A DNA stretch of 64,000 nucleotides, from contig CANQPD010000006.1 of NCBI GenBank assembly GCA_947625655.1, forward strand, positions 1-64,000, read 5' to 3'. Each line of letters opens with the position of its first letter. Position 1 is the first letter of the stretch. The stretch is from an uncultured Dysosmobacter sp. (GTDB lineage: Bacteria; Bacillota; Clostridia; Oscillospirales; Oscillospiraceae). The position numbers and the translations under genes are program-made. Positions 11,477-36,619 of this stretch are shown here, piece by piece. Below the pieces are notes generated by a model. It saw only the letters and a list, made by a program, of their open reading frames with translations. It was not told the origin of the DNA and made no database searches.

Positions 11477-11486
11477 GGGGGCTTTG

Positions 11487-14400
11487 ATGGAAAGATCGAT
11501 CGCGTTCATTGACAGCGAAATTGGTGTCGATGATAAGAAAATACATGATCTGGGTGCCGTTCGCAATGACCGGGCCTCATTCCACAGCGCCTCTGTTTGG
11601 GAATTTTCAGAGTTTATTGCCGATGTGGAATTCCTCTGCGGCCATAATATCATCCACCATGATATGGCATATATAAGGCCGCATTTGGCAGATGGCTTTT
11701 CGGCAAAATGCATTGATACCCTTTACCTCTCCCCCTTGCTGTTCCCAAAGCGCCCCTATCACGCACTTTTAAAGGACGATAAACTTCAGGTGGATGAGCT
11801 GAATAATCCACTGAATGACGCCCGGAAAGCGGAGAAGCTGTTCTACGACGAGGTAAATGCTTTTTACAGCCTGTCTTCTGCGAAAAGGCGGATATATTGC
11901 TGTCTGCTCTACCAGTTTGAAGAGTTCCGGGGCTTTTTCAACTATGTAAATTTTGCGCCGCATCGTTTCAATGCAGAAGAACTGATCATAAGCGAATTTT
12001 ATGGAAAAATCTGCGCGAACGCCAATTTGGCGGTACTGATCAAACATTATCCGGTTGAACTTGCCTATGCCCTTGCGCTGATTTCCAGCAGGGATTATCG
12101 TTCTGTCACTCCCCGCTGGCTCCTGAAGAACTATCCTAAAATTGAGAACGTCATCAAGTATTTATGCAGCACCCCCTGTAAGGAGGGCTGCGAGTACTGC
12201 TCCTCCGTTTTGGACATTCACAAGGGCCTGAAACGAATTTTCGGATATGACAGTTTTCGCACCTATAATGGCGAGCCCCTGCAGGAGCGTGCGGCACAGG
12301 CGGCAGTAGACGGAAAATCGCTGCTGGCCGTCTTTCCAACAGGCGGCGGCAAGTCCATTACATTTCAGCTTCCTGCACTCATGGCGGGAAACGCGGTTCA
12401 TGGCCTGACAGTGGTCATTTCGCCGCTGCAGTCACTTATGAAAGATCAGGTTGACAACCTGAATGCTCTGGGCATTGTCGATGCTGTCACTGTAAACGGC
12501 CTGCTTAGCCCAATAGAAAGAGCGGATGCCTATGAGCGCGTGGCGAACGGCTTGGCAACGATACTTTATATCTCGCCGGAACAGCTTCGGTCAAAGACGA
12601 TTGAAAAAATGCTGCTGTCCCGCAGCATCGTTCGTTTTGTCATTGATGAGGCACATTGCTTTTCCGCGTGGGGACAGGATTTTCGCGTTGATTATCTTTA
12701 TATCGGTGACTTTATCCGCGAACTGCAGAAACAGAAGGGGGATAAGAGGCCGATCCCTGTGTCGTGCTTTACTGCCACGGCCAAGCAAAAGGTCATCAGT
12801 GATATCTGCGATTATTTTAAGCGCAAACTGGACCTGGACCTTGAACTGTTTGCGTCCGCGGCAACACGCGGGAACCTCCACTATGCTGTGCTGTTTAAGG
12901 AAACGGAGGAGGAAAAATACACAGCGCTTCGCGCTTTGATCGAGCAGAAAGACTGCCCGACGATCGTCTATGTCTCCCGCACAAAACGGACGAGAGAACT
13001 GGCCGATAAGTTGAACAGCGACGGGTTCCCCGCAAGACCGTTTAACGGAAAAATGGACCCCAATGAGAAAATTGAAAATCAGGAAGCATTTATGCGGAAC
13101 GAGGTCAAAGTAATCGTCGCAACCTCGGCTTTTGGCATGGGCGTAGATAAAAAAGACGTCCGGTTAGTGGTTCATTACGACATTTCGGACTCGCTTGAAA
13201 ACTATGTGCAGGAAGCCGGACGTGCCGGACGCGATCCGGCGTTGGAGGCGGATTGTTATGTCCTTTTCAATGACAATGATTTGGATAAGCATTTCATTCT
13301 GCTCAACCAGACGAAACTGAGCATCAGCGAAATTCAGCAGGTCTGGAAAGCAATCAAGGATTTGACGAAGCTCCGCCCCAATATAGCCTGCTCTCCCCTG
13401 GAGATTGCCCGCCAGGCTGGCTGGGATGACTCTGTCACTGATATTGAAACGCGGGTGAAGACCGCGGTTGCCGCATTGGAAAATGCCGGTTATATCAAGC
13501 GCGGGCGCAATGTTCCCCGCATTTTTGCCACCAGCATCCTTGTGCGAAATATGCAGGAAGCCAGCTTTAAAATCGATCAGTCGCGGCATTTTACTGACCA
13601 GCAGCGGCAGGATGCGAAACGCATTATGAAATCCCTGATTTCAAGCCGAAGCATTGCGAATGCCGGAAATGATGATGCTGAATCTCGCGTAGATTACCTT
13701 GCGGATATTCTGGGGATCCGGAAGTCCGATGTTATAACCGCAATCAATTTGATGCGTCAGGACGGCCTGCTGGCAGATTCTCAGGATATGTCGGCCTATA
13801 TTCTCAAGGCCGACACGCAGAACAAGTCCCTTCAAATTCTGGATCGTTTTGCCAAGCTGGAGGATTTTATTTTTGAGAAACTTCCGTCGGATGGATGCAT
13901 CATTGATTATAAAGAGTGGAACGAGGCGGCACTTGCCGCGGGAATCACAAGCTCCAGCGTTAAAAATCTTAAGACCCTGCTGCACTACCTGACGATTAAA
14001 AATGATATCCGCAAAGTGGAGGATGCGGAAAGCCACACGGCGATGATTCAGCCCACAATGTCCTGTGACCTTTTGACAGCCAAATTCAAGCGCAGAATGG
14101 ATGTTTGCCGTTTCATCGTAGGCGAGCTCTATGAACGCGCTGAGCAAAGAACGGATGAACGTACAGACGAAACGCCGGTGCTCTTCTCTCTCGTAGGACT
14201 TTTCAATGCTTACAAGGAGACCCGGCGGCTTGACATGGATTATGCCGTTGTCACCCTGGATGATATATCTGACGCGCTTTTGTACCTCTCAAAAATTGGA
14301 GCGATGAAACTTGAAGGCGGATTTCTGGTATCCTACAACGCTATGCAAATCAAGCGCCTTGTTACGGACAACCGTATCAAGTACAAGGTGGACGATTATC

Positions 14401-16283
14401 GGATGCTGGACGAGTTTTATAAGCAAAAGATCCAACAGATCCACATTGTCGGAGAATATGCGAACCTGATGACGCAAAATTACTTTGCTGCGCTGCAATT
14501 TGTTCAGGACTATTTCCGGATGGATTTCAGGCGGTTTATTTCCAAGTATTTCAGAGGCGAGAGAATCAAAGAAATCGACCGCAATATCACGCCTCAAAAG
14601 TATCACCAGCTTTTCGGGGAGCTCTCGGATATTCAGTCCAAAATCATCAATGACAATGCGTCTAAATATATTGTTGTCGCCGCCGGCCCCGGCAGCGGCA
14701 AGACACGTGTGCTGGTACATAAGCTGGCTTCTCTGCTTTTGCTGGAGGATGTAAAACACGAGCAGCTCTTGATGCTTACATTCTCGCGGGCAGCGGCAAC
14801 CGAGTTCAAAAAGCGCTTGCTCGGGCTGATTGGAAACGCTGCCAATTTCGTTGAAATCAAAACATTCCATTCATATTGCTTTGATCTTCTTGGAAAGATC
14901 GGCAGTTTGGAAGGGGTTGAGGACGTTGTAAAAAACGCGGCCGAAATGATCCAAAACGGCGAAGTTGAACCCGGTAGAATTATGAAGAGCGTTCTGGTCA
15001 TCGATGAAGCGCAGGATATGGATGCCCATGAGTTTGCACTGGTGCAGGCGCTGATCCGGGCGAATGATGATATGCGTGTCATTGCAGTGGGTGACGACGA
15101 CCAGAACATCTATGAATTCCGCGGCTCCAATTCCAAGTACATGGCCGCATTGCTTAGCCGCTATGGCGCGGTAAAGTATGAGATGGATGAAAACTACCGC
15201 AGCAAGGCCGGCATTGTGTCTTTGAGCAACGCCTTTATTGCCGCCATGCAGAATCGTATGAAAACCGCTCCCATTCAGGCGGTTCAATCCGAAAGCGGCA
15301 CAGTTGAAATGACACATTATATTTCGGAAAATATGGAGGCAGGACTCGTCAACCAGGTGCTTCAGACAGACCGCGGCGAAACATCTTGTATCCTGACAAA
15401 CACGAATTATGAGGCGCTGCAAATAGTCGGCCTGCTCACCCGGAAAGGAAAACGGGCAAAGCTGATCCAATCCAATGATGGATTCAGCTTGTATAACCTT
15501 GCGGAAGTGCGCTTTTTCTTGAAGTATATTGATGAGCGGTTGAATTCTCCGGTAATTGATGATAGGCTTTGGAACCAGGCAAAAGAACGGCTGTCAACCG
15601 TGTATTCCGGCAGCAGCTGCCTGCCAAACTGCTTGAAAATGCTGGAGGAATTTGAAAAGGCAAATTCGACGAAGTTCCGCACAGACGTTGGTGAATTTAT
15701 CAGAGAATCCAACTATGATGACTTTTATGAGGATGATGGGGACACGATCAGCGTTTCCACAATTCACAGGGCGAAAGGGCGTGAATTTCACACAGTCTAT
15801 TTGTTCTTAAAGAATATAACTGTGCTGAATGATGAGACGCGCCGAAAGCTGTATGTAGCCCTGACGCGGGCGAAAGATTCCTTGTACATCCATTGCAACA
15901 CCAATTTATTTGACCACGATACTTTGGCCGGTATTGTTCAAAAAACGGATACATCCGCGTATCATGAACCTAATGAAATCCTGATGCAGCTCACCCATAA
16001 GGATGTTGTGCTGAACTTCTTCAAGGATAAAAAAGAAGTTATCTTGAATATGCGCAGCGGAGATGCCCTTGCAGTTTCCGGGATTTATCTGACCGCTGAG
16101 GTGAACGGCCGGACGATATCAGTTGCGAAATTTTCAAAAGCGTTTCAAGAAAAACTAGACCTGTTGGCATCACAGGGATATCAACCATATACGGCAGCGG
16201 TCAGTTATGTTGTTGCGTGGCAGGGAGAAAATGATGAGGAGGAATCCGCAGTCCTTCTCCCAATGCTGAGCTTGCGCAAATAA
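11487..16283 (+). CDS. Multidomain DEDD exonuclease - RecQ helicase - UvrD/Rep helicase fusion (~1598 aa)
   Basis: Exo: IAFIDSEIG...LCGHNIIHHDMAYI...NDARKAEKLF; RecQ: VFPTGGGKSITFQLPAL, FVIDEAHCFSAWGQDFR, SCFTATAK, SAFGMGVDKKDVRLVVHYDISDSLENYVQEAGRAGRD; UvrD: VVAAGPGSGKTRVLVHKL, VLVIDEAQDMD, AVGDDDQNIYEFRGSN, STIHRAKGREF, LYVALTRAKDSL; RBS aggggggctttg. Confidence 0.95.
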   Translation: MERSIAFIDSEIGVDDKKIHDLGAVRNDRASFHSASVWEFSEFIADVEFLCGHNIIHHDMAYIRPHLADGFSAKCIDTLYLSPLLFPKRPYHALLKDDKLQVDELNNPLNDARKAEKLFYDEVNAFYSLSSAKRRIYCCLLYQFEEFRGFFNYVNFAPHRFNAEELIISEFYGKICANANLAVLIKHYPVELAYALALISSRDYRSVTPRWLLKNYPKIENVIKYLCSTPCKEGCEYCSSVLDIHKGLKRIFGYDSFRTYNGEPLQERAAQAAVDGKSLLAVFPTGGGKSITFQLPALMAGNAVHGLTVVISPLQSLMKDQVDNLNALGIVDAVTVNGLLSPIERADAYERVANGLATILYISPEQLRSKTIEKMLLSRSIVRFVIDEAHCFSAWGQDFRVDYLYIGDFIRELQKQKGDKRPIPVSCFTATAKQKVISDICDYFKRKLDLDLELFASAATRGNLHYAVLFKETEEEKYTALRALIEQKDCPTIVYVSRTKRTRELADKLNSDGFPARPFNGKMDPNEKIENQEAFMRNEVKVIVATSAFGMGVDKKDVRLVVHYDISDSLENYVQEAGRAGRDPALEADCYVLFNDNDLDKHFILLNQTKLSISEIQQVWKAIKDLTKLRPNIACSPLEIARQAGWDDSVTDIETRVKTAVAALENAGYIKRGRNVPRIFATSILVRNMQEASFKIDQSRHFTDQQRQDAKRIMKSLISSRSIANAGNDDAESRVDYLADILGIRKSDVITAINLMRQDGLLADSQDMSAYILKADTQNKSLQILDRFAKLEDFIFEKLPSDGCIIDYKEWNEAALAAGITSSSVKNLKTLLHYLTIKNDIRKVEDAESHTAMIQPTMSCDLLTAKFKRRMDVCRFIVGELYERAEQRTDERTDETPVLFSLVGLFNAYKETRRLDMDYAVVTLDDISDALLYLSKIGAMKLEGGFLVSYNAMQIKRLVTDNRIKYKVDDYRMLDEFYKQKIQQIHIVGEYANLMTQNYFAALQFVQDYFRMDFRRFISKYFRGERIKEIDRNITPQKYHQLFGELSDIQSKIINDNASKYIVVAAGPGSGKTRVLVHKLASLLLLEDVKHEQLLMLTFSRAAATEFKKRLLGLIGNAANFVEIKTFHSYCFDLLGKIGSLEGVEDVVKNAAEMIQNGEVEPGRIMKSVLVIDEAQDMDAHEFALVQALIRANDDMRVIAVGDDDQNIYEFRGSNSKYMAALLSRYGAVKYEMDENYRSKAGIVSLSNAFIAAMQNRMKTAPIQAVQSESGTVEMTHYISENMEAGLVNQVLQTDRGETSCILTNTNYEALQIVGLLTRKGKRAKLIQSNDGFSLYNLAEVRFFLKYIDERLNSPVIDDRLWNQAKERLSTVYSGSSCLPNCLKMLEEFEKANSTKFRTDVGEFIRESNYDDFYEDDGDTISVSTIHRAKGREFHTVYLFLKNITVLNDETRRKLYVALTRAKDSLYIHCNTNLFDHDTLAGIVQKTDTSAYHEPNEILMQLTHKDVVLNFFKDKKEVILNMRSGDALAVSGIYLTAEVNGRTISVAKFSKAFQEKLDLLASQGYQPYTAAVSYVVAWQGENDEEESAVLLPMLSLRK

Positions 16284-20600: not shown

Positions 20601-20707
20601 AAAAATACACTCCTTTGTTTTGTTTGAAAACACCCTGGATCCTTTGACTTCTCCAAGGTGAACAAACAACAAAGAAGCGCGTTAAAAACGCGCGGCTCTG
20701 CCGCACT

Positions 20708-20828
20708 CATCTTCTTCCATCCCGACTATACGGTTGGTCCCGGAGTTCCACCGGGTCAGCGGATACCTTCCGGCATCCGGTCGCGGACTTTACCGCCAGT
20801 GGGGAATCACACCCCGCCCTGAAGACAA
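20708..20828 (-). ncRNA. FMN riboswitch (RFN element)
   Basis: Reverse complement reads cttcagggcggggtgtgattccccactggcggtaaagtccgcga...gacccggtggaactccgggaccaaccgtatagtcgggatggaagaagatg. Confidence 0.97.
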
Positions 20829-20940
20829 AGTATTCAGTTGCTCTCTTGCGGATAGTATACGACAGTCCCGCTGGAAATGCAACCCCTTTTTTGATTTTGC
20901 CCCGGCGGGCCCCGCCGGGAGGGGATCCCTGAAAAAGGCC

Positions 20941-23070: not shown

Positions 23071-24258
23071 TCAATAGCACTTGCGATAGATGGCCTCTTC
23101 GCTCTCCAGATCGAAGGGATAGTAGGCGTTGGTCATCAGGCGCTGCTGGTTGGCCTCGACAGACAGGGGGAAAGCCTTGAAGTCGGCCTCGGTGAAGCCG
23201 CAGTCCCTCAGGGGGCGCAGGGGCAGGATGCGCTGCAGCAGGGCGTTCAGCTCGGGGATGGCGTTCTTGGCCTCGCAGCCCAGGATGCTGGCGATCAGCT
23301 CCTTGAACTTCATGATCTCGCCGTCGGGGTCGTGCTCGTCATAGTAGTCCAGGATGGCGCCGAAGAGCATGTAGTTGCTCTCGCCGTGGGGCACATGATA
23401 GGTGCCGCCCAGAGGGAAGCTCATGCCGTGGACAGGGCCGCAGCCGGCCTTCAGGAAGGCGATGCCGGCGTAGAAGGAGGCGGTGACGAACTGATCCATA
23501 TACTCGAACCGGGCGTCCTGGCCCTTCTCGTCCAGCAGCTTGAAGCCCTTCAGGATCATGTCCATGGCCTTCTCGCTGAAGAGCTCACTGGTGGTGGTCT
23601 TGCGGTGGGGGCTCAGGAAGGACTCGGTGGCGTGCACCAGGGCGTCGATGGCGGAGCAGGCGAAGGGCTTGTAGGGCAGGGTGCGCAGCAGGTCGGGGAT
23701 CAGGCAGACCTTGTTGGGGATGATGTCGTCGGACACCAGGCCCAGCTTGGTCTCGCCGCCGGTCAGCACGCCGTCCTTCTCGTCCTTGACGATGGCCACG
23801 GAGATGTTGGTGCACTCAGAGCCGGTGCCGCAGGTGGTGGGGATGGCGATAACGTCCTTCTCATGCACCACGGGGAAGCGCTTGAAGTACAGGTTGTGGA
23901 CCGTGTCGGGGCGCTGGCAGCCCAGCAGCTTGCACAGGTCCATGATGGCGCCGCCGCCCACGGCGATGACGCGGTCATAGCTGTCGTAGGGGATGGCGTC
24001 GTACATGGTCTGGATCATGGCCTCGGAGGGCTCGCCGGCGCCGAACTTCTCCTGGAAGACGAACTGGCACTTCAGGCCCAGCTCCTCCATGAAGGGCTTG
24101 TAGATGAACTCGTTGGTCAGCACCACGTCCCGGTCGTTCAGCTTGAATTCCTCCGCCATCTGGGCGAAGGTCTGGAACTTGTACACGGTGGGAGCGAAGA
24201 TGATCTCGCGCTTATCGGCCATCAGAGAGGCGGAAAATGCGTCCATTGCTTTAGCCAT
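23071..24258 (-). CDS. Iron-containing alcohol dehydrogenase (4-hydroxybutyrate dehydrogenase-like)
   Basis: VIAVGGGAIMDLCKLLG; VIAIPTTCGTGSECTNISVAIV; GPVHGMSFPLGGTYHVPHGESNYMLF. Confidence 0.88.
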   Translation of the reverse strand: MAKAMDAFSASLMADKREIIFAPTVYKFQTFAQMAEEFKLNDRDVVLTNEFIYKPFMEELGLKCQFVFQEKFGAGEPSEAMIQTMYDAIPYDSYDRVIAVGGGAIMDLCKLLGCQRPDTVHNLYFKRFPVVHEKDVIAIPTTCGTGSECTNISVAIVKDEKDGVLTGGETKLGLVSDDIIPNKVCLIPDLLRTLPYKPFACSAIDALVHATESFLSPHRKTTTSELFSEKAMDMILKGFKLLDEKGQDARFEYMDQFVTASFYAGIAFLKAGCGPVHGMSFPLGGTYHVPHGESNYMLFGAILDYYDEHDPDGEIMKFKELIASILGCEAKNAIPELNALLQRILPLRPLRDCGFTEADFKAFPLSVEANQQRLMTNAYYPFDLESEEAIYRKCY

Positions 24259-24337
24259 TGGAATCAACTCTCCTTTGCATAAAATATAAAGTATTTTGAC
24301 ACCGCCCCGGCTTCCGCCGGGGCGGCAGTCAACGGAT

Positions 24338-25312
24338 TTACTTGCGGGCCACGGCCTTCTTCACGGCCGCGACGATGTTGGCGGCGCGGAGGCCGTACTC
24401 GTCCATCAGGAAGTCCTGGGGACCCACCTGGCCGAACTGATCCTGCACGCCCACGAACTCCTGGACAGTGGGGCGGTTCTTGGCCAGGCAGTTGGCAACC
24501 ACACTGCCCAGGCCGCAGGTGACGTTGTGGTTCTCGGCGGTGACAATGGCGCCGGTCTCCTTGGCGGCCTTGAGGACCAGCTCCTCGTCCAGGGGCTTCC
24601 AGGTGAACATGTCGATGACCCGGACGGAAATGCCCTCGGCCTGCAGAGCCTCATAGGCCTTCAGGGACTCGTCCACCATGATGCCGGAGGTGATGATGGT
24701 GGCAGCGTCGTTCTCGCTCTCGTGCAGGACGACGCCCTTGCCGATCTCGAACTCGGAGCCCTCGCCGTAGACCTGGATGATGCCCTTGCGGACAAAGCGG
24801 GTGAAGGTCACGCCCTTCTTGATGGAGGGCAGCTGGCGGGTGATGCTGGCCAGCTGATCGTAGTCGGCGGGGTCCAGCACGGTGGTCTCGGGGATGCTCA
24901 GGTACATGCCGGCATCCTCCAGAGGCATATGGGTGCCGCCGTTGAAAGCGGCGGTGACGCCGGCGTCGGAGGCCAGGACATGGACGGTCAGGCCGGCGTA
25001 GGCGGCGGACATGTAGATCTGGTCATAGCAGCGGCGGGAGGAGAAGGTGCCGAAGGAGTGGAAGAACACGGTCTTGCCGGTGGCGGCGAGGCCGGCGGCC
25101 ACGCCGGCGGCGTTGCCCTCGGCAATACCGGCCTCGAAGGCCCGGTCGGGATAGTTCTTGCGCAGCATCTTGGTGTTGATGCAGCCCATCAGGTCGCAGT
25201 CCACATAGCAGATGGACTGATCCTCCGCCATCATCTCGTTCAGGGTCAGAGCGAGAGCGTCGCGGCAGGCGCGGGAATCTTTCTTGTGCTCACCAATCAG
25301 TTTCACGTTCAT
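24338..25312 (-). CDS. Transketolase, C-terminal subunit
   Basis: FEAGIAEGNAAGVAAGLAATGKTVFFHSFGTFSSRRCYDQI; split transketolase partner upstream. Confidence 0.92.
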   Translation of the reverse strand: MNVKLIGEHKKDSRACRDALALTLNEMMAEDQSICYVDCDLMGCINTKMLRKNYPDRAFEAGIAEGNAAGVAAGLAATGKTVFFHSFGTFSSRRCYDQIYMSAAYAGLTVHVLASDAGVTAAFNGGTHMPLEDAGMYLSIPETTVLDPADYDQLASITRQLPSIKKGVTFTRFVRKGIIQVYGEGSEFEIGKGVVLHESENDAATIITSGIMVDESLKAYEALQAEGISVRVIDMFTWKPLDEELVLKAAKETGAIVTAENHNVTCGLGSVVANCLAKNRPTVQEFVGVQDQFGQVGPQDFLMDEYGLRAANIVAAVKKAVARK

Positions 25313-25327
25313 TGCTCGTACCCTCCC

Positions 25328-26161
25328 TTAAGCGTTCTTGGCATCTTCCAGAGCCTTTTCAGCGGCGGCCAGAGCCTCGGCCCACTGTTCTTCGTTGGGC
25401 TGAGAGGAGTGGTCGTGCTTGGGCTCGGCAAAGGTAGCGCCCTTGCCCTTGCAGGTGTCCAGCACGATGCAGCTGGGCACGCCCTTCTTGGCGTAGGCGT
25501 TCTGGATGGCGTTGTAGATGGCGGTCACGTCATGGCCGTCGATCTCCTGGGTGTACAGGCCGAAGGCCTCGGCCTTCTTGGCCAGGTCGCTGTGGGCCAG
25601 GATGTCGTCGGTGGGGCCGTCCAGCTGATAGCCGTTCTTGTCGATGAAGAAGATCAGGTTGTCCAGCTTGTGGGCGTAGGCGAAGTGGAACGCCTCCCAG
25701 ACCTGGCCCTCATCGGCCTCGCCGTCGCCCACCACGCAGAAGACATGGCTGTCACGGCCGTCGATCTTGTTGCCCAGGGCCGCGCCGGTGGCGGTGGAGG
25801 TGCCCTGGCCCAGGGAGCCGGTGGTCAGGTCCACGCCGGGGGTCAGCTTGCGGTCCGTGTGGCTGGGGAACTTGGTGTGGGGATGGTTCAGGGTATAGGC
25901 GTCCTCCATGGGATAGAAGCCCATCAGGCCGTAAGTGGCGTAAGCCACGGGGCCCGCGTGGCCCTTGGACAGGACCAGCCAGTCGCGGTCCTCCCAGCGG
26001 GGATTCTTGGGATCGAACTTCATGACCTCTCCATACAGAACGGCCATCAGATCGGCCAGGTCCATGGAGCCGCCCACATGGCCGAAGCCCCGGGAGTGGA
26101 TGACCTTCAGGGTCTCCAGCCGGATCTCGGCCGCCAGAACTTTGCATTTCTTCTCGTTCAT
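25328..26161 (-). CDS. Transketolase, N-terminal (TPP-binding) subunit
   Basis: GHVGGSMDLADLMAVLY; VLSKGHAGPVAYATY; GSLGQGTSTATGAAL; CVVGDGEADEGQVWEAFHFA. Confidence 0.95.
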   Translation of the reverse strand: MNEKKCKVLAAEIRLETLKVIHSRGFGHVGGSMDLADLMAVLYGEVMKFDPKNPRWEDRDWLVLSKGHAGPVAYATYGLMGFYPMEDAYTLNHPHTKFPSHTDRKLTPGVDLTTGSLGQGTSTATGAALGNKIDGRDSHVFCVVGDGEADEGQVWEAFHFAYAHKLDNLIFFIDKNGYQLDGPTDDILAHSDLAKKAEAFGLYTQEIDGHDVTAIYNAIQNAYAKKGVPSCIVLDTCKGKGATFAEPKHDHSSQPNEEQWAEALAAAEKALEDAKNA

Positions 26162-26223: not shown

Positions 26224-27243
26224 TTACAGATATGATTGGAATTCGTCCATGCGGACGGGCCGCCGCTCCCTGGCGGAGCGGGTGCAGGCCATGGCCAGCA
26301 GCGTGGCCTTTTGGGCGTCTTCCGCGCCCACGGGGACCGGGTAATCGTTTTCCACAGCGTCAACAAATTGCCGCACTTCCTCCTGGAAGGCGGGCAGATA
26401 GCGCTCTAAAAAGAACCAGAGGGGCCTTTCCGCCGTGACGCCTCCGGCGGTGGAGAGCACAGCGGTGGACGGCGTGTCGTTGCCGATGGAGACACAGCCG
26501 CGGGAGCCGAAGACCTCCGCCCGCTGGTCATAGCCGTAGACCGCCTGACGGGAGTTGTCGATCAGCGCCAGCGCGCCGCTTTCAAGACGCAGCACAACGG
26601 CCGCGGTGTCGATATCCCCGGCCCGGCCGATGGCCTCGTCCACCAGGACGCTGCCCGCGGCGTACACCTCCTCCACCTCGCTGCCGGAGAGGAAGCGCAC
26701 CATATCCAGATCATGGACCGTCATGTCCAGAAACAGCCCGCCGGAGGACGGGATGAATTTGGGCGCCGGCGGTTCGGAATCCCGGGAGCAGATCTTCACC
26801 ACCTGGACCTGACCGATCCTCCCCTCGGCAACGGCGCGGCGGAGGGCCTGGAAGTTGTGGTCAAACCGGCGGTTGAATCCCACTTGATATTTTAAACCAG
26901 AAACCGCCGCTTCGTCAATGACAGTTTGTATTTTAACAAGCCCCAGATCCACGGGTTTTTCACAGAACACATGCTTTCCCGCCCGCAGGGCCTCCACGGA
27001 GATATCCGCGTGAGTGCTGGTGGGGGAGCAGATCAGCACCGCGTCGATGCGGGAATCCCGCAGCAGGGCGCGGTGATCCTGAGTGAGGATCTCCGCGCCC
27101 GCGCTGCGGGCAAGCTGTTCGATCTCTTCGGTGATGTGCGGGGCGGCGATGCCCCGGATGTGAGCGCCCGGGACGCCGGAGAGGATACCGCGGATGTGGA
27201 CCCGACCGATCCGTCCCACACCAATGATACCAAGCTGCAGCAT
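26224..27243 (-). CDS. Gfo/Idh/MocA family oxidoreductase, inositol 2-dehydrogenase-like
   Basis: LGIIGVGRIGRVHIRGILSGVPGAH; CEKPVDLGLVKIQTVIDEAA; GFNRRFDHNFQAL; FLDMTVHDLDMVRFLSGSEVEEVYA. Confidence 0.88.
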   Translation of the reverse strand: MLQLGIIGVGRIGRVHIRGILSGVPGAHIRGIAAPHITEEIEQLARSAGAEILTQDHRALLRDSRIDAVLICSPTSTHADISVEALRAGKHVFCEKPVDLGLVKIQTVIDEAAVSGLKYQVGFNRRFDHNFQALRRAVAEGRIGQVQVVKICSRDSEPPAPKFIPSSGGLFLDMTVHDLDMVRFLSGSEVEEVYAAGSVLVDEAIGRAGDIDTAAVVLRLESGALALIDNSRQAVYGYDQRAEVFGSRGCVSIGNDTPSTAVLSTAGGVTAERPLWFFLERYLPAFQEEVRQFVDAVENDYPVPVGAEDAQKATLLAMACTRSARERRPVRMDEFQSYL

Positions 27244-27274: not shown

Positions 27275-28843
27275 TTATTCGTACTGGGTGCCCGCGCCGT
27301 CCACCATGGCGTCATAGGCACGCTTGACCTTGTCGTAGTTCTTGTCGCGGTCCAGCACCACGCCGCGGCCCACGCCGTCCACGATGCGGCCCACGCCGAT
27401 GGCATCCAGCCTGGCGTCCGTCTCGGCCAGCAGGGCGGGGGCGGAGCCGGGCTCAGTGGAGCGGCCGTCGAAGATGATGTGCAGATACACACGGTCCAGG
27501 CCGTTGTCCCGGGCCATCTCGCAGATGTTCAGGGGGTAGTCGATGCAGCCGTGGGAGGACTTGTAGGTCAGGTAGGCCAGCAGATGCAGGCTGGTGCCGT
27601 TGCGCTTGGCGTGCTCGATGGCCTCCAGGAAGATGGGGTTCTGCTTGAAGCTGCCGTCCTTCACGGCGGCGTCCAGGCGGACGTCATCCTGCATCACGCA
27701 GCGGCCGGCGCCCAGGTTGGAGTGGCCGGCCTCGGAGTTGCCGGCCTTGCCGGCGCCCAGGCCCACATACTCGCCGGAGGCGTGGAGCTTGGACCAGGAC
27801 TGGTTGGCCAGCAGAGAATCCCAGTAGGGGGTGTCCGCCACGTGGATGGCGTCGCCCTCGTCGCCGGTGCCCAGGCCCCAGCCGTCGCAGATGATGAGGA
27901 GCATCTTGCGGTCCTTGCCCCAGTCCTTGCCCTCGCACAGGGAGTGGCCGGACATCTCGGCGGGCTGGGGGATGCCCAGAACGTCCAGCACGGTGGGAGA
28001 CACGTCGCCCAGGGAGCCGTCCCGCAGGGTGATGGGGCTGGGATCGGCGGGGTCGATCATGATAAAGGGCACCAGGTTGGTGGTGTGGGCGCCGTCGGGC
28101 TTGCCGGCGGCGGTGTACAGCTTCTCAATATTGCCGTGGTCGGCGGTGATGGCCACCACATAGCCCTTGGACAGCGCGTCGTTGACCACCACGTCCAGAT
28201 AGTGGCTGACATGGCCGCAGGCCTCGATCTTGGCGGCGGTGTTCTGGGTGTGGCCGATGACGTCGCCGTTGGCGAAGTTGGTGACGATGAAGTCGTACTT
28301 GCCCAGGGCCTCGGTCAGCTTCTCCGCCACGGTGGGCAGGGACAGCTCGGGCTTCTGGTCGAAGTCGATGCCCTTGGGGGAGGGGATGCACAGATCGTCC
28401 TCGCCGGGGAAGGGGTTGTTCTCGCCGCCGTTGAAGAAGAAGGTCACATGGGCGAACTTCTCGCTCTCGGCACAGTGGAACTGGCTCTTGCCGGCCTCGG
28501 AGAGCACCTGGGCCAGGGGCTTCACCACCTTGGCGGGGGCGAAGGCGATGGGCAGATTCTTGAACTTGTCGTGGTACATGGTCATGATGACGAAGTCCAG
28601 ATCGTTGAGCTTGCGGCGCTCCACCTTGTCAAAGCCCTCTTCGGTGAACATCTCGGTCAGCTCGATCTCCCGCTCGCCCCGGCGGCAGCAGAAGATGGCG
28701 GCGTCGCCGTCGGAGATCTTGCCCACGGGCTTGCCGTCCTCCACCAGGACCATGGGCTCCAGGTGGTAGTCGTCCTGCCCCAGTTCGTATGCTCTCTTGA
28801 CGGCTTCGGCCAGCTGGGCGCCGCCGCGCTTGATATCAGACAT
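27275..28843 (-). CDS. Cofactor-independent phosphoglycerate mutase homolog with circularly permuted sequence order
   Basis: N-half matches canonical iPGM C-half (KFAHVTFFFNGGENNPFPGED, NFANGDVIGHT, ITADHGN, AHTTNLVPF, PAEMSGHSL); C-half matches canonical iPGM N-half (LLIICDGWGLGTGDEGDAI, GKAGNSEAGHSNLGAGR, FDGRSTEPGSAP, LDRDKNYDKVKRAYDAMVDG). Start at ATG 28843 after ggaggtattttct. Confidence 0.9.
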   Translation of the reverse strand: MSDIKRGGAQLAEAVKRAYELGQDDYHLEPMVLVEDGKPVGKISDGDAAIFCCRRGEREIELTEMFTEEGFDKVERRKLNDLDFVIMTMYHDKFKNLPIAFAPAKVVKPLAQVLSEAGKSQFHCAESEKFAHVTFFFNGGENNPFPGEDDLCIPSPKGIDFDQKPELSLPTVAEKLTEALGKYDFIVTNFANGDVIGHTQNTAAKIEACGHVSHYLDVVVNDALSKGYVVAITADHGNIEKLYTAAGKPDGAHTTNLVPFIMIDPADPSPITLRDGSLGDVSPTVLDVLGIPQPAEMSGHSLCEGKDWGKDRKMLLIICDGWGLGTGDEGDAIHVADTPYWDSLLANQSWSKLHASGEYVGLGAGKAGNSEAGHSNLGAGRCVMQDDVRLDAAVKDGSFKQNPIFLEAIEHAKRNGTSLHLLAYLTYKSSHGCIDYPLNICEMARDNGLDRVYLHIIFDGRSTEPGSAPALLAETDARLDAIGVGRIVDGVGRGVVLDRDKNYDKVKRAYDAMVDGAGTQYE

Positions 28844-28865
28844 AGAAAATACCTCCGGTTTTAAA

Positions 28866-28975
28866 TTAATAATTGATAATTGAGAATTGATAATTAAATA
28901 ATGATCGGAAATGGATAATTGGACGTTTCTCATGAACACCCAATTATCAATTATCCATTATAAATTATCAATTGT
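28866..28975. repeat. AT-rich inverted repeat
   Basis: aataattgataattgagaattgataattaaataat ... caattatcaattatccattataaattatcaattg in an otherwise GC-rich region. Confidence 0.85.
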
Positions 28976-28977
28976 TT

Positions 28978-29754
28978 TCACTGCCCGTCGTCGGGGGCGG
29001 TCAGCTTATCGACAGCCACCTGGCCCCGGGCGGGGAAGATGTCCAGCAGCTGGGGGAAGGTGTAGACCTTGGCGTCGGGCATGTTCTCCTCGGTAAGCTT
29101 CAGGGGCTTGTTTTTGTTGTACTGCACGGCCACGGTCATGCCGAAGTCGCAGGCCTTGGCGCCCACGATGTCACGGTTCAGGTTGTCGCCCACGTAGCAG
29201 CAGTTCTGAGGCAGAGCGCCCACCTCTTCCATGGCGTAGTAGTAGATGGCGGGGCCGGGCTTGCGGACGTAGGTGATGGAGGACTGCTGCACGGTCTTGA
29301 AGTAGGGCCGCAGGCCGTCGTTGTCCAGCCACTCGTCCACCTCCCGCTTGCCCACCAAATCACTGATGATGCCCAGGGTGTAGCCCCTGGCGCACAGCTC
29401 CTTGACGGTCTCGGCGCCGCCGGCCACCACGGTGCGGCGGCCCTTGGTCTGGCGGTACTGATAGGTCAGCTCGGCGGCGTTCTTCAGGATCAGCTCCTGG
29501 TCCATGTCATAGGCCAGCCAGCGGGTCCACAGGACCTCTTCGGGAGCCTCGCACATAAATTTCAGCGCCCATTCGCGGTACTTGTCATAGCGCTTGTCGA
29601 TGACCTCGTCAAACCACTTGTTGGCATCGTCGGTTTCCACGCCGCAGAGCTGGGCGATCTTGGCCCGGGCGGCGGAGAGATAGGCGGGGTCCTCGTCGAT
29701 GACGCGGAAGGTGCCGCCCAGATCCAGGAAAATGAAGCGGATGTCGGTGTTCAT
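28978..29754 (-). CDS. HAD-like hydrolase 1
   Basis: FIFLDLGGTFRV; LGIISDLVG; VRKPGPAIYYY; CYVGDNLNRDIVGAK. Confidence 0.9.
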   Translation of the reverse strand: MNTDIRFIFLDLGGTFRVIDEDPAYLSAARAKIAQLCGVETDDANKWFDEVIDKRYDKYREWALKFMCEAPEEVLWTRWLAYDMDQELILKNAAELTYQYRQTKGRRTVVAGGAETVKELCARGYTLGIISDLVGKREVDEWLDNDGLRPYFKTVQQSSITYVRKPGPAIYYYAMEEVGALPQNCCYVGDNLNRDIVGAKACDFGMTVAVQYNKNKPLKLTEENMPDAKVYTFPQLLDIFPARGQVAVDKLTAPDDGQ

Positions 29755-29887
29755 TCCCTATTGGCCTCCTTATGTAACTTGAATATATGTCTGTTGGGGT
29801 CCCCGCGAAAACCCGGTTGCGCGGGGAGCGGAAGAAGTGACGGAACGACGTGAAGCCTGCCCAGAGGGCGGGCTTCACAGAGCGCGG

Positions 29888-30631
29888 TCAGTTTTGAGAA
29901 AGGGGCGGCAGCAGGTCCAGGATCTCCCGGAAGTCCTGAATAACAGCGTCGGGGCGGGTTTCCTCGGTGAACTCCACGGGGTGCTTCTTCTCCGGGGAGG
30001 AGAAGATGATGTTGCAGCCCACGCCGGCCTTCTTGGCGCCGGGGATGTCCCGCTTGATGTTGTCGGCCACGGACACGCAGTCCGCCAGCTCCACGCCCAT
30101 CTCCTTGGCGCACAGCTGATAGATCTCGCCGCAGGGCTTGCGCATATGGCACACAGAGGAGAGGACGACGGAATCGAAGTATTTGTCCAGGCCGTCCTCC
30201 TCCAGCCAGTCGGGGACCTCGTTTTCGCCGATCAGGTTGGAGATGATGCCCAGGCGGTAGCCCCGCTCGTGGAGGCCCTTGATGACCTCCACGCCGCCGT
30301 CCACGACGACGCGGCGGCCCTTGCACTGGCGGTACTGGAAGCTCAGCTCATGGCAGACCTGCCTGATGCGGGCCGGATCGTAGTCGGGCAGCAGCCACTT
30401 GCACCACAGTTCCTCGTCGCCGGACTCCTTGTTCTCGCCCAGGGCCCACTTGCGGTAGGGCTCATAGCGCGCCTCGATCATCTGGTAAAATTCCTCATAG
30501 GGAACAGGAGAGCCTGCGATCTCCGCCATCTTCCGGCGGGCGTGCTTCATATAAGGCTCCTCTAACAGGGCGATGCGCAGAGTGCCGCCCAGGTCAAAGA
30601 ATACCGCCTTATAACGCTTGTTCTGGTCCAT
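29888..30631 (-). CDS. HAD-like hydrolase 2
   Basis: AVFFDLGGTLRIALLEEP; LGIISNLIG; MRKPCGEIYQL; VSVADNIKRDIPGAK. Confidence 0.9.
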   Translation of the reverse strand: MDQNKRYKAVFFDLGGTLRIALLEEPYMKHARRKMAEIAGSPVPYEEFYQMIEARYEPYRKWALGENKESGDEELWCKWLLPDYDPARIRQVCHELSFQYRQCKGRRVVVDGGVEVIKGLHERGYRLGIISNLIGENEVPDWLEEDGLDKYFDSVVLSSVCHMRKPCGEIYQLCAKEMGVELADCVSVADNIKRDIPGAKKAGVGCNIIFSSPEKKHPVEFTEETRPDAVIQDFREILDLLPPLSQN

Positions 30632-30652
30632 GGATCAAACGGCCTCCTTCTT

Positions 30653-31387
30653 TTAATTCAGCGCGGGGAAGATGTCCAGCAGCTCGGACAGGGAAGTGAT
30701 GACGTGGTCGGGGGTGAACTCCTTGCCGGTGGCGTGCTCCATATTCAAGGTGTCCGGCTCGTCAATGCGGATCATCATGCCGAAGCCGGCGGCCTGGGTG
30801 CCCTCCACGTCCCGCACCGGGTTGTCGCCGACGTAGGCGCAGTTGGCCTCCGGGGTGCCGATGCAGCGGCAGGCCAGATGATAGATGTCGGGATCGGGCT
30901 TGCGCAGGCGGACCTTGGAGGACAGGATGGTGGTCTTGAAGCACTGGGCCACACCGTCGGCGGCCATCCAGTCGGGGATCTCCGTCTCGGTGACGGTGTT
31001 GGCGATGATGCCCAGGGTATAGCCCCGGGCGCACAGCTCCTTTAAGGTGGCCACGGCGTCGGGACGGGCCACGCGGCGGCCGTCGTGGTCGCGCCACAGG
31101 CGGGTCAGGCGGGCGGCGTTGGCAAAGATCATGTTGGGCTCATAGTCGGGCAGCATGTACTGGGTCCACAGCTCGCCCTCGGAGGCGTCCAGCAAAGTGG
31201 TCTTGGACAGCTTGCGGTACTTCTTCCACCGCTCCTCCAGCTTGGCGAACAGCTCGTCGTGGCTCTCCTTGGTCTGGATCAGCTCCATCAGGCCGGCCTC
31301 GGCCTGATCGATGAACGCCTGGTCCTTCACCACCACGCGCAGGGTGTTGCCAACGTCAAAGAAAATGGTTTTGATCTCGGGGGCCAT
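30653..31387 (-). CDS. HAD-like hydrolase 3
   Basis: TIFFDVGNTLRVVVKDQ; LGIIANTVT; LRKPDPDIYHL; AYVGDNPVRDVEGTQ. Confidence 0.9.
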   Translation of the reverse strand: MAPEIKTIFFDVGNTLRVVVKDQAFIDQAEAGLMELIQTKESHDELFAKLEERWKKYRKLSKTTLLDASEGELWTQYMLPDYEPNMIFANAARLTRLWRDHDGRRVARPDAVATLKELCARGYTLGIIANTVTETEIPDWMAADGVAQCFKTTILSSKVRLRKPDPDIYHLACRCIGTPEANCAYVGDNPVRDVEGTQAAGFGMMIRIDEPDTLNMEHATGKEFTPDHVITSLSELLDIFPALN

Positions 31388-31417
31388 AGTAAAATTCCTC
31401 CTTGTTCTATCTTCAAT

Positions 31418-32176
31418 TTATTTTGGTTGATTATAGGAACGGATGATTCCGGGGATCTCGCTGAGATCGTCGATCAGGACGTCCGGCGCCAGGCCGGTGC
31501 CGGCAAAGGCGGTGTCCCGGTGGGCGATGGAGGGGTTTCGGATCTGGATGCTGAGGGCCACTCCGGCGTTCCGGCAGCCCAGGACATCCCGGGAGAGGGT
31601 GTCGCCCACATAGGCCATCTCCCGGCAGGGAACGCCGCATTGGGCGGCAGCCAGTTCAAAGATGGCGGGGTCGGGCTTGCGGATGCCCGCGGAGGCCGAA
31701 ATGACCAGGCAGGACATGTACTGCGCGATGCCGTAGTCCTCCGCCAGCCGGGGGACAAAGGAGGTGGAGATCATGTTGCTGATGATGCCCTGGACCATCC
31801 CCATCTCATGCAGGGTCTCAATGGTCTGGCGCATATGGGGCCTGGGCACGTTTTTCACCCGGGTGGCGTCGTACATCCAGGACAGCTCCTCGGCAATGGG
31901 GGCCAGGAGTTCCTCGCCGATCTGGAAGTCCTTTAAATAAAACTCGCTCCAGATACGGGGACTGGGAAGCTCGACGCGGGATTCCTCCGACCAGTGCTTG
32001 TAGGCCTCGGCGTTTTCGTGGAGCAGGGGCGTCAGCGCCGCCGCGCCGATGGGAAGGGCGACGCCGTGGGCAGACAGGATATCCAGCAGCCGCTGGGAGA
32101 AGCGGTCGGCCATCTCCTGGTCGTGATGGACCTCGTGGAGCGTGCCGCCGACGTCGAAAAGGACTGCGCGGATCAT
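31418..32176 (-). CDS. HAD-like hydrolase 4
   Basis: AVLFDVGGTLHEVHHDQ; QGIISNMIS; IRKPDPAIFEL; AYVGDTLSRDVLGCR. Confidence 0.9.
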   Translation of the reverse strand: MIRAVLFDVGGTLHEVHHDQEMADRFSQRLLDILSAHGVALPIGAAALTPLLHENAEAYKHWSEESRVELPSPRIWSEFYLKDFQIGEELLAPIAEELSWMYDATRVKNVPRPHMRQTIETLHEMGMVQGIISNMISTSFVPRLAEDYGIAQYMSCLVISASAGIRKPDPAIFELAAAQCGVPCREMAYVGDTLSRDVLGCRNAGVALSIQIRNPSIAHRDTAFAGTGLAPDVLIDDLSEIPGIIRSYNQPK

Positions 32177-32229: not shown

Positions 32230-32297
32230 ATACAGATTGTAAACGTTTGCGACCTTTTACAGGTTTTATTCTAAATAAGCGGGGGTGGTTTGTCAAT
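32230..32297 (-). promoter_or_regulatory. Minus-strand promoter with LacI-type operator
   Basis: Reverse complement TTGACA - 17 nt - TAGAAT, followed by cgcAAACGTTTaca (AAACGTTT at 32241-32248). Confidence 0.7.
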
Positions 32298-32367: not shown

Positions 32368-32466
32368 TTGACATTGAACTGAAAATCATATATTCTTTTA
32401 TCGTACAGTCGTAGGGCCGTGCCGCGGCCGCCGACTGTAAAAAATAAACCGGAAACGTTTACGATT
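32368..32466 (+). promoter_or_regulatory. Plus-strand promoter with LacI-type operator
   Basis: TTGACA (32368-32373), 17 nt, TATTCT; cggAAACGTTTacg downstream (AAACGTTT at 32453-32460). Confidence 0.7.
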
Positions 32467-32494: not shown

Positions 32495-33499
32495 ATGAAA
32501 AGTGTGACCTTGAAGGATGTGGCCAAGGCGGCCGGCGTCTCCTATGCCACGGTTTCCCGGGCTTTATCCGGCAGCCCCCAGATCGGCAGCGATACCCGGG
32601 AGCGCATCATCAAGCTCTGCGACGAGATGGGCTATACCACCAATTACGTGGCCCGCTCCATGGTCATGAAGAAGACGGACCTCATCGGCCTGGTGGTCCC
32701 CTCCATCGACAACCAGTTTATGTCGGAACTGGCCTATTACGCGGAGATGAGCGCCCGGGCCCACGGCTACAACATCATGCTGTGCAACTCCGGCCCCGAC
32801 CTGAAGCAGGAGAAGACCGTGGTCAAGCTGCTGCTGGGCCGCCAGGTGGACGGCATCCTCATCGTGCCCCAGAGCCCCAAGACCTATGAGAATATCCGGG
32901 CCTACACCGACCAGGTGCCCACGGTGTTCCTCAGTGAGAACCTGCGGGACCAGCCCCAGAGCTATGTGGCGGCGGACAACAGCCGCGGCACCTACATCGG
33001 CACCAAATACCTCTATGAGCTGGGCCACCGGGATATTCTGTACTTCGGCCGCCGCCACACCACCACCCACCAGCTCCGGGCGGAGGGGTATATGAAGGCC
33101 TGCCAGGAGCTGGGGCTCCAGCAGCGGTTCTTCAACAGCGAGTTTTCCCGCTCCTCCGTGAACAACGGCTATGAGCTGGCAAAGGAGCTGTTCTCCAAGC
33201 CCATCGATTACTCCGCCATCTTTGCCTCCACGGACTCCAACGCCCTGGGCCTGCTGAAGGCGGCGGACGAGCTGCGCATCGACGTTCCCGGCCGCCTGAG
33301 CCTGATCGGCTTCGACAACATTCCCTCCACGGCCCTGCCCCGCATCGAGCTGACCACCATCGAACAGCCCAAGCGGGAGATGGCGGTTCAGGCGGTGGAC
33401 ATGCTGCGGGACAAGATCGAAAACGGCACCCAGGGCTATGTCCATCAGATCCTGATGCCCAGCCTGATCAAGCGCAGCACCTGCCGGGCGCTGGAGTGA
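32495..33499 (+). CDS. LacI family transcriptional regulator
   Basis: MKSVTLKDVAKAAGVSYATVSRALSGSPQIGSDTRERIIKLCDEMGYTTNYVARSM; IGFDNIPSTALPRIELTTI. Confidence 0.97.
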   Translation: MKSVTLKDVAKAAGVSYATVSRALSGSPQIGSDTRERIIKLCDEMGYTTNYVARSMVMKKTDLIGLVVPSIDNQFMSELAYYAEMSARAHGYNIMLCNSGPDLKQEKTVVKLLLGRQVDGILIVPQSPKTYENIRAYTDQVPTVFLSENLRDQPQSYVAADNSRGTYIGTKYLYELGHRDILYFGRRHTTTHQLRAEGYMKACQELGLQQRFFNSEFSRSSVNNGYELAKELFSKPIDYSAIFASTDSNALGLLKAADELRIDVPGRLSLIGFDNIPSTALPRIELTTIEQPKREMAVQAVDMLRDKIENGTQGYVHQILMPSLIKRSTCRALE

Positions 33500-33577: not shown

Positions 33578-34303
33578 ATGAACGGCTATTTGTACGATCC
33601 CCATACCCACACCGCGGAGACCAGCAGGTGCGGCCACCTGCCCGCCGCCGAGGTGGTGGACCGCTATGTGGCAAAGGGCTTTACCGGCCTGGTGGTGACG
33701 GATCACCTCCACCCGGAGTACCTGTCCCGCATCGACACCCAGCACAACTGGGACGCGGTGATGGATCACTATCTCTCCGGCTACCACGCCTCCAAGAAGC
33801 GGGGCGACGAGGTGGGCTTCGACGTGATCCTGGGCGCGGAGTTCCGCTTCCCCGAGAACGACAACGACTATCTGGTCTACGGCATCGACGAGCAGTGGCT
33901 CCGCTCCCACCCCTACGCCTGCTGCATGAGCGCTCAGGAATTCTTTGCGAAGTTCCACGATGAGGTGCTCATCATCCACGCCCATCCCTACCGGGACGGC
34001 AACACCACCGTGTTTGAGGACGCCGTCCACGGCTCCGAGATCATCAACAGCAACCCCCGCCACAAAAACCACTCCGATCTGGCCCTGGACCTGTGCCGCC
34101 GCCATCCCGGTTTTTACCGCCTGGCCGGGTCCGACACCCACCAGGCCGGGGACGAGGCCCGGGCGGGCGTCATCCTGCCTGAGCGGGTGGGAGACTCCTA
34201 TGCCTATAAGCACATGATCGAAACGCTCCAATTCCAGCTGTGGAGCCCTGAATTCCAGTCCTATGTGGACGCGGATGAAAAGATGCGAAAGGAAGGCAAG
34301 TAA
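33578..34303 (+). CDS. PHP domain phosphoesterase
   Basis: LYDPHTHTAETSRCGHLPAAEVVDRYVAKGFTGLVVTDHL; VLIIHAHPYRDG; LAGSDTHQAGD. Confidence 0.85.
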   Translation: MNGYLYDPHTHTAETSRCGHLPAAEVVDRYVAKGFTGLVVTDHLHPEYLSRIDTQHNWDAVMDHYLSGYHASKKRGDEVGFDVILGAEFRFPENDNDYLVYGIDEQWLRSHPYACCMSAQEFFAKFHDEVLIIHAHPYRDGNTTVFEDAVHGSEIINSNPRHKNHSDLALDLCRRHPGFYRLAGSDTHQAGDEARAGVILPERVGDSYAYKHMIETLQFQLWSPEFQSYVDADEKMRKEGK

Positions 34304-34305
34304 GT

Positions 34306-35187
34306 ATGAGTCAGCAGTTTGATTCCCTCATCATCGGCGAGGTGGCCCAGGACACCAATGTGGACTACGACGGCACCACCATCCAGGCCGTGGGCGGCGC
34401 GGTGTACTACTCCGGCTTCGCCGCCGCCAACATGGGCCACAAGATCGCGGTGCTGCCCAAGGCGGACACCACGAAGATCGATATGGCGGCCGCCTTCGCG
34501 GACGCGCCCAACGTCACTGTGTTCCCCCTGCACAGCAAGACCTCCTTTGTCACCAAGAACGTGTACCACACTCCCGACCGGGAGCGCCGCACCTCCACGG
34601 TGGACAGCGTCATCGAGCCCTACAAGACCTCCGAGGTCCCGGAGATCGACGCCAAGATCTGGCACCTGGCCGGTCTGGTGGGCGGCGACATCACCGATGA
34701 GATGATCCCCTTTGCCGCCAAGCACGCCATGGTGGCCATCGATGTGCAGACCATGCTGCGCTGCGTGGAAAACGGCGGCATGGTGTACCACGACTGGGCG
34801 GCGAAGAAGGAGATGCTGCCCTACATCCGTTTCCTGAAGACCGACGCCGCCGAGGCGGAGATCCTCACCGGCACCGATGACCGGGCCGCCGCCGCCAGGA
34901 TGCTGTACGACTGGGGCGCCAAGGAGATCCTCATTACCCACAACACCGAGGTCCTGGTGTATGACGGCAGGGAGATCTATACCTGCCCCATCAAGTCCCG
35001 GAACATGTCCGGCCGCACCGGCCGGGGCGACACCACCTTCGCCGGTTACATCAACGAGCGCCTGACCAAGGACATCCCCACCGCCCTCCAGACCGCCACC
35101 GCGCTGGTCTCTCTGAAGATGGAGACCCCCGGCCCCTTCATGGGCACCCGGGCCGATGTGGAGAATTACATCAAGGAATTCTATTAA
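34306..35187 (+). CDS. PfkB family carbohydrate kinase
   Basis: IIGEVAQDTNVDYDGTTIQAVGGAVYYSGFAAANMGHKIAVL; TGRGDTTFAGYINERL. Confidence 0.88.
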   Translation: MSQQFDSLIIGEVAQDTNVDYDGTTIQAVGGAVYYSGFAAANMGHKIAVLPKADTTKIDMAAAFADAPNVTVFPLHSKTSFVTKNVYHTPDRERRTSTVDSVIEPYKTSEVPEIDAKIWHLAGLVGGDITDEMIPFAAKHAMVAIDVQTMLRCVENGGMVYHDWAAKKEMLPYIRFLKTDAAEAEILTGTDDRAAAARMLYDWGAKEILITHNTEVLVYDGREIYTCPIKSRNMSGRTGRGDTTFAGYINERLTKDIPTALQTATALVSLKMETPGPFMGTRADVENYIKEFY

Positions 35188-35205
35188 GATCCGGCTATAT
35201 CGGAA

Positions 35206-35471
35206 AAGCGCCGCGAAAGCGGCGCTTACAGCTTGTCGAAAAACCTCTGTTTGGAGAAAAAGCGTTCCGTTTCGCAGGGGGAGTACGAGGGGGCGGGAGC
35301 CCCCTCGTGTTGAATCGAATGCCTGCAAAGGGCTGTGACAACAGTCCTTTGCCCCGCGAAGCGGGAGCTTTTTGGCCTGCAAAGCAGGCCAAAAAGCGAG
35401 GCATTGTGAAGCCCGTGGAAAAAGTCCAAAGGACTTTTTCCACGGGCTGAGCGCCGCTTTCGCGGCGCTTT
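35206..35471. repeat. Palindrome-rich intergenic element bounded by inverted hairpin copies
   Basis: AGCGCCGCGAAAGCGGCGCT near 35207 and its exact reverse complement AGCGCCGCTTTCGCGGCGCT at ~35450; internal palindromes tttttggcctgcaaagcaggccaaaaa and cccgtggaaaaagtccaaaggactttttccacggg. Confidence 0.8.
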
Positions 35472-35534
35472 TTTCCTTGACGGCGTATCTGGAACAGGAT
35501 ATGATGAAGCAAAGAGGAAAAGGAGGAAGCCGGT

Positions 35535-36206: not shown

Positions 36207-36480
36207 AAGGAAAGGAGAAACAGTAACGCAAATTTCTTTGCGGTGCGGGGGAACAAAGGAAACTGCCTTCACCGCCGGGGAAAGTGGGCGCGGGGACCCC
36301 GGACTGGTCATCGCCATTCCACAGGGTCAGGACAGGGTCCCCGCCGCGGGGGAATGAAACCGGCTAGTGCGAACACGGTCAGTCCCACGGAAGGGAATGC
36401 GTGCAATACCCTTCAAACCCGCCCAATTAACGCAAACGTTTCCGAAAAACGGTGAAAGAAAATCCCACGGAATCCTCTTG
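36206..36480. ncRNA. Candidate structured non-coding RNA of unknown class; strand unresolved
   Basis: ~400-nt CDS-free region with self-complementary segments such as gcggggaccccgg...gacagggtccccgc; no protein-like ORF on either strand. Confidence 0.3.
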
Positions 36481-36619
36481 TGTGGGAACACCTATATTAT
36501 GCAATATCAAGGGATTAAAGTCAATAGCCTGAAAAGAAGTTTGGCATTTGGGACAAGGATTTTCAAAAAAGCTGTGCGCTTTCACGATAAAATGCTCAAA
36601 CGTTTGCATAAAAAGACGC

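Follow-up and report, generated by a model that had tools for sequence, protein, structure and literature searches.

Four HAD paralogues sharing a glycine in place of the second motif I aspartate, encoded with a circularly permuted phosphoglycerate mutase: a candidate inositol phosphate module in Dysosmobacter

The 64,000-nucleotide stretch of contig CANQPD010000006.1 analysed here (the window), from an uncultured Dysosmobacter sp., carries on its minus strand an array of four HAD-like genes, HAD4 to HAD1. The array belongs to a longer operon that continues with genes for a circularly permuted mutase (cpPGM), IolG, the N- and C-terminal transketolase subunits and an iron-containing alcohol dehydrogenase (Fe-ADH). 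The features of the locus are as follows.

23071-24267, minus strand: iron-containing alcohol dehydrogenase (Fe-ADH)
24338-25312, minus strand: transketolase C-terminal subunit
25328-26161, minus strand: transketolase N-terminal subunit
26224-27243, minus strand: IolG, inositol 2-dehydrogenase (TIGR04380, 429 bits against a cut-off of 355)
27275-28843, minus strand: cpPGM, a circularly permuted cofactor-independent phosphoglycerate mutase (iPGM) paralogue, C-terminal part first and N-terminal part second
28978-29754, minus strand: HAD1, 258 aa, motif I LDLGGTF (DLGGT)
29888-30631, minus strand: HAD2, 247 aa, motif I FDLGGTL (DLGGT), motif IV SVADN
30653-31387, minus strand: HAD3, the most conserved paralogue, 244 aa, motif I FDVGNTL (DVGNT), motif II GIIANT
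31418-32176, minus strand: HAD4, first gene of the operon, 252 aa, motif I FDVGGTL (DVGGT)
32239-32250, no strand assigned: LacI-type operator-like palindrome GTAAACGTTTGC, upstream of HAD4
32268-32296, minus strand: promoter-like TTGACA-17-TAGAAT (11/12 matches), upstream of HAD4
32451-32462, no strand assigned: LacI-type operator-like palindrome GGAAACGTTTAC, upstream of the LacI gene
32495-33499, plus strand: LacI-family regulator, divergent from the HAD operon
33578-34303, plus strand: PHP-domain protein, possible phosphatase (weak Pfam match, 25.1 against 26.4 bits)
34306-35187, plus strand: PfkB kinase, TM0415-like, RTGRGD motif

An AT-rich imperfect inverted repeat (28859-28964) separates HAD1 from cpPGM, and a further inverted-repeat element lies at 35204-35472; a similar reading frame (FDSTR.GSRPLVLPLRNGTLFLQTEVF) near an importer locus of the genome (C33; L103, position 7974) suggests a dispersed repeat. 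Elsewhere in the window are an FMN riboswitch (Rfam RF00050, 116.7 bits; 20705-20830, minus strand), upstream of a membrane protein gene, and a 1615-codon ORF (11436-16283, plus strand) where the GC content drops to 0.49 within a window at 0.60-0.68, possibly a foreign island.

All four array products are Pfam HAD proteins, and translation of the ORFs places them on the minus strand at the coordinates given in an earlier note on this DNA, each with the DxG form of motif I described there. HAD2-4 are 21-42% identical to HAD1, and in the alignment of the four the Asp, Thr, Arg-Lys-Pro and Asp...Arg-Asp elements are intact. The nucleophile Asp of motif I, the Lys of RKP and both Asp residues of motif IV are kept, in agreement with the note's reading that the motif III Lys and motif IV Asp remain. 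The motif II Ser/Thr is found in HAD1, HAD2 and HAD4 and is replaced by Ala in HAD3; the GIIANT of HAD3 and the VADN of HAD2 are as the note reported, and each recurs among its own orthologues. The AF2 model of HAD2 (pLDDT 96.3) has an ordinary C1-cap HAD fold with a Rossmann-like core (Foldseek E ~1e-12), its structural neighbours being PH0459-like chains and designs, NANP and dehalogenases.

The position of the usual general acid/base, the second Asp of motif I (D+2), was followed through 294 unique homologues taken from loci fetched with a HAD3 query and from the genome itself. In the 289 whose motif I column could be aligned, D+2 is Gly without exception, a constancy that chance does not explain, and the nucleophile Asp is likewise present in 289/289. 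RKP and GDxxxRD are essentially invariant across the aligned homologues, and R164, K165, P166, D190, R194 and D195 are invariant in 68 sequences. A maximum-likelihood tree resolves five separate orthologous clades, HAD1-HAD5, of which HAD5 is importer-linked, and the four window proteins fall in distinct ones; the clades span Bacillota, Chloroflexota and, in part, Spirochaetota. Within the same genome, two further close paralogues beyond the window also have Gly at D+2 (DMGGT), and four more distant HADs carry Asp there (DLDDT, DMDGT, DLDGT, DLDFT). A search of 299 genomes from the phylum (E 1e-30) turned up no HAD of this family standing alone, away from the module.

The five-clade tree and the 289/289 glycines together indicate that the shared Gly is a single ancestral state under selection, that is, one event and not four losses, and they rule out independent losses or decay of the D+2 Asp. 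The earlier note had proposed specialised chemistry rather than decay. The second half of this proposal is well supported by a Gly that is strict across three phyla and five orthologous clades, by synteny and by the retention of the other catalytic residues; its first half goes further than the data, as loss of the D+2 Asp does not by itself establish a chemistry. HAD3 is the hardest of the paralogues to explain because its motif II, too, is without the Ser/Thr (GIIANT or GVIANT in 84 sequences, fixed within the HAD3 clade), and it is yet 62-97% identical to its relatives across phyla. Judged by its motifs, such a protein would be odd for a catalyst.

The neighbours of the array, namely cpPGM, the PfkB kinase and IolG, which the earlier note passed over, say most about its function. 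The cpPGM protein scores 451.2 bits on TIGR01307 (cut-off 330.65), matched in two stretches whose order is swapped, and its alignment score against canonical iPGM increases from 287.5 directly to 909.5 once the parts are exchanged. After this reordering it is 41% identical (205/498) over the full length to the ordinary iPGM that the genome encodes besides (C3). Its GNSE, NFANGDxxGHT, TADHGN, HTTN and CDGWG motifs align to the canonical paralogue and are conserved in 33 sequences; they hold the Ser nucleophile and, going by the roles known for iPGM, the metal ligands. Foldseek aligns the AF2 model (pLDDT 90.3) to iPGM about half at a time, as expected for a permutation. The Ser nucleophile and the metal-site residues are shared with iPGM (1ejj, 1o98, 1o99), whereas the residues near the glycerate site differ from it and are fixed. 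We found no account, in the open-access literature, of a permuted iPGM that keeps its catalytic residues.

A comparison of the PfkB kinase with the PDB at E 0.001 gave only TM0415 of Thermotoga maritima and a related chain. TM0415 is described in PMC5931981 as a PPi-dependent kinase that phosphorylates myo-inositol and is encoded within an inositol operon. The two proteins are 34% identical and have an RxGRGD motif in common, which as RTGRGD is present in 57/59 PfkB homologues. According to the contacts given in that paper, PfkB is identical to TM0415 at all inositol contacts (D11, N78, Q141, R145) and keeps four of the five residues of the PPi signature (K171, R229, R232 and M266, with F221 replaced by Ile). 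The PHP-domain protein matches TM0559, and only weakly.

The arrangement recurs in gut and rumen relatives, Anaerolineaceae and Spirochaetes. Wherever the downstream flank is 4 kb or longer, which is so in 60 loci, cpPGM follows the HADs (60/60). Forty loci have at least 6 kb on either side, many of them from close relatives and thus not independent samples; they contain LacI in 33 cases, PfkB in 32, PHP in 27, IolG in 23, transketolase N in 20, GAPDH-II and PGK in 15 each, LarA in 14, permease in 12, HAD5 and IolE in 11 each, MgtC in 8 and a membrane pyrophosphatase (mPPase) in 3. The order cpPGM-PfkB-mPPase, with mPPase directly after PfkB, recurs in L097, L098, L100 and L101. In Levilinea saccharolytica, iolB, aldehyde dehydrogenase, IolE-type and iolG genes precede HAD3-HAD2-cpPGM, and near the modules of relatives both IolE (405 bits, cut-off 290) and IolB (327 bits, cut-off 205) pass. 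In seven rumen Clostridia (L059, L062, L076, L082, L085, L086, L089), IolG and type-II GAPDH come after the module, mostly together with PGK, LarA and IolE, a hint of a further pathway that runs through acyl-phosphate intermediates. Among 25 genus-level genomes, this one included, 12 encode IolE: all 10 that have cpPGM but only 2 of the 15 others (hypergeometric p ~2e-5, relatedness ignored). The order level agrees (2/2 against 8/147).

A separate iol operon in the same genome encodes IolD, IolB, IolE, an IolG-like protein and an RbsB-type ABC system, which makes the HAD locus an additional inositol locus; the genome also encodes an mPPase. Two importer loci beyond the window (C33 and C6:87-93 kb) each encode a fused permease, an ATPase, a substrate-binding protein and a HAD5, and this importer adjoins the module, with HAD5, in 10 of the 12 long-flank loci with a permease gene. 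This permease is similar to its counterparts in molybdate, sulfate and 2-aminoethylphosphonate systems, below every cut-off. A comparison of the substrate-binding protein with solved structures returned no relative, and hence no ligand. Neither PTP-like nor histidine acid phytases were found in the assembly (95% complete), in a search confined to these two classes.

Besides the two palindromes between HAD4 and the LacI gene, a perfect operator-like site, GCAAACGTTTGC, lies ~125 bases upstream of the C6 importer. These LacI-type sites are suggestive of a regulatory tie between the HAD operon and that importer. The strict operator pattern occurs at 5 sites genome-wide against 3 for the reversed control pattern, a weak enrichment, so the link stays at that strength. 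A second operator-like pair (36432-36443 and 36596-36607) occupies the gap downstream of a MATE gene, and a similar pair is seen in L044 (3751 and 3913).

Based on the above, we propose that the module takes up inositol (poly)phosphates and removes their phosphates step by step inside the cell, supplying inositol catabolism, a reading that we hold to be about as probable as all others taken together. Phosphorylated inositols would enter through the organic-anion ABC importers, the two outside the window each coming with a HAD, and the HAD paralogues, as the phosphatase or phosphoryl-transfer arm, would strip the phosphates one by one via an aspartyl-phosphate intermediate; each paralogue is probably suited to its own phosphate position or intermediate. 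The cpPGM protein may move or remove a phosphate beyond the reach of the HADs, PfkB could couple inositol, inositol monophosphate, Pi and PPi, IolG would take the freed inositol into catabolism, and the LacI-type repressor would control the module genes. Where the usual general acid/base is lacking, departure of the leaving group would most likely be helped by the substrate, through a neighbouring phosphate, or by water; an acid/base might be dispensable owing to such vicinal-phosphate assistance, to an easy leaving group or to transfer to an acceptor other than water. The content and order of the genes, their co-conservation, the conserved residues and the co-occurrence with inositol catabolism are observed; it is from these sequence comparisons that we infer the substrate, the order of the steps, the allotment of one HAD to each position, the direction of the PPi reaction and the catalytic role of the Gly.

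Several lines of evidence favour this inositol phosphate reading: the synteny of cpPGM, LacI, PfkB and IolG, the TM0415 residues kept in PfkB, the scores of IolG, IolE and IolB, the co-occurrence of cpPGM with IolE, the additional iol operon, the adjacency of the HAD5 importer with its operator-like site, and the absence of PTP-like and histidine acid phytases. To these is added the persistence of several HAD clades side by side across phyla, which argues for non-redundant roles. On the other side, the transketolase pair and Fe-ADH are not accounted for, HAD3 is without the motif II Ser/Thr, the importer's binding protein points to no ligand, no phytase is known to be a HAD of this type, the operator pattern is weakly enriched, and type-II GAPDH, PGK and LarA near some rumen modules would fit an acyl-phosphate or glycerate-like pathway too. 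The Levilinea PPi-kinase homologue also counts against it: this enzyme was PPi-dependent and made several inositol monophosphates, and a compound other than myo-inositol was considered its real acceptor (PMC5931981).

In a second reading, which we rate at roughly half the likelihood of the first, the module is a route for breaking down free inositol, or some other cyclitol, via phosphorylated intermediates. PfkB would phosphorylate inositol or an inosose with PPi, IolG and others would oxidise the product and open the ring, transketolase and ADH would rearrange it, and the HADs and cpPGM would act late, on phosphorylated acids or aldehydes. Such a route agrees with the behaviour of TM0415, whose gene lies in an inositol operon, and of its homologues, which ran as PPi kinases in vitro (PMC5931981). 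It also agrees with the succession of the transketolase pair and Fe-ADH after IolG, with GAPDH-II, PGK, LarA and IolE following in relatives, and with a cpPGM score that clears the cut-off for phosphoglycerate mutases (451 against 330.65). A monophosphate pathway hardly accounts for three to five HADs, though; a separate iol operon, served by another ABC transporter, is present in the genome already, and HAD5 accompanies an importer of the organic-anion and not of the sugar type. A sulfoquinovose transketolase pathway, suggested by the split transketolase, Fe-ADH and kinase, was dropped in view of IolG and of the resemblance of PfkB to TM0415.

The missing acid/base could instead point to HADs acting where the leaving group needs no acid catalyst, as with anomeric or acyl phosphates, in a sugar-acid pathway loosely tied to inositol. 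The E. coli glucose-1-phosphatase YihX carries Gly at D+2, and the GAPDH-II and PGK encoded near some relatives work in acyl-phosphate chemistry; we nevertheless find this unlikely, given the strict co-occurrence with IolE and the adjacent IolG, IolB, IolE and inositol-kinase homologue. Slightly less likely still is that the four HADs, or some of them, do not catalyse a reaction and serve in binding or regulation: HAD3 lacks both the D+2 Asp and the motif II Ser/Thr, and both absences are fixed in its clade, but the nucleophile Asp, the Lys of RKP and the Asp pair of GDxxxRD are invariant in all clades, which is unexpected for pseudoenzymes. A further, improbable reading is that the module banks phosphate-ester energy as PPi. 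PfkB would run in reverse, yielding inositol + PPi from inositol phosphate + Pi, the HADs, having no base that activates water, would perhaps pass their aspartyl-phosphate to Pi, and the mPPase would convert the PPi into an ion gradient.

Recent gut studies described phytate-degrading isolates with no recognisable phytase, for which novel phytases or phytate-specific phosphatases were inferred (PMC12838507), and how Dysosmobacter turns inositol into butyrate has yet to be worked out (PMC12482443). The module is a concrete candidate for both. Its substrates may include inositol phosphates made from plant phytate. It also provides a natural family of five acid/base-less HAD paralogues held apart across phyla, and PPi conservation, if true, would be a new way of gaining energy from phytate-type phosphorus. 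A literature search (open access) returned no description of such a HAD array linked with inositol or phytate.

Compared with known systems, Gly at D+2 alone is not new. YihX shares it (FDLGN), together with the RKP motif; the query sequence used here matches PDB chains named glucose-1-phosphatase end to end. PH0459 (FDFVGT) also lacks the second motif I Asp, so this residue is not universal within the HAD superfamily, and it is absent from L-haloacid dehalogenases too. The plant ITPK4 study, citing the dehalogenase DehRhb, likewise states that a missing second Asp need not preclude activity (PMC7614388). A well-characterised active subfamily with the same motif, covering all four, was what the earlier note thought could overturn its view; YihX answers to this in part with its DLGN, but belongs to another subfamily, the HADs reaching at most ~24 bits on the glucose-1-phosphatase model (cut-off 295). 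Membership of the L-2-haloacid dehalogenases (TIGR01428) was rejected at 25.7, 37.2, 52.5 and 30.7 bits against a cut-off of 125.4. Of the curated NCBIfam models, the general subfamily TIGR01549 alone reaches its cut-off for the HADs, and all named families stay below theirs. With C1-cap subfamily IA (TIGR02253, TIGR02252; PH0459/1x42, NANP/4knw), the HADs have in common the fold, the nucleophile Asp, the motif III Lys and the motif IV Asp pair; they differ from it by the Gly found at every D+2 and, in HAD3, by the lack of the motif II Ser/Thr.

The module differs from the setting of TM0415 in its genomic partners, since neither a HAD array nor cpPGM is mentioned for TM0415 in the available parts of PMC5931981. 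PTP-like and histidine acid phytases share with the HADs the proposed job, removal of phosphate from inositol phosphates, and carry it out with folds unrelated to theirs; no phytase is known to be a HAD of the module type, and the searches made brought up none.
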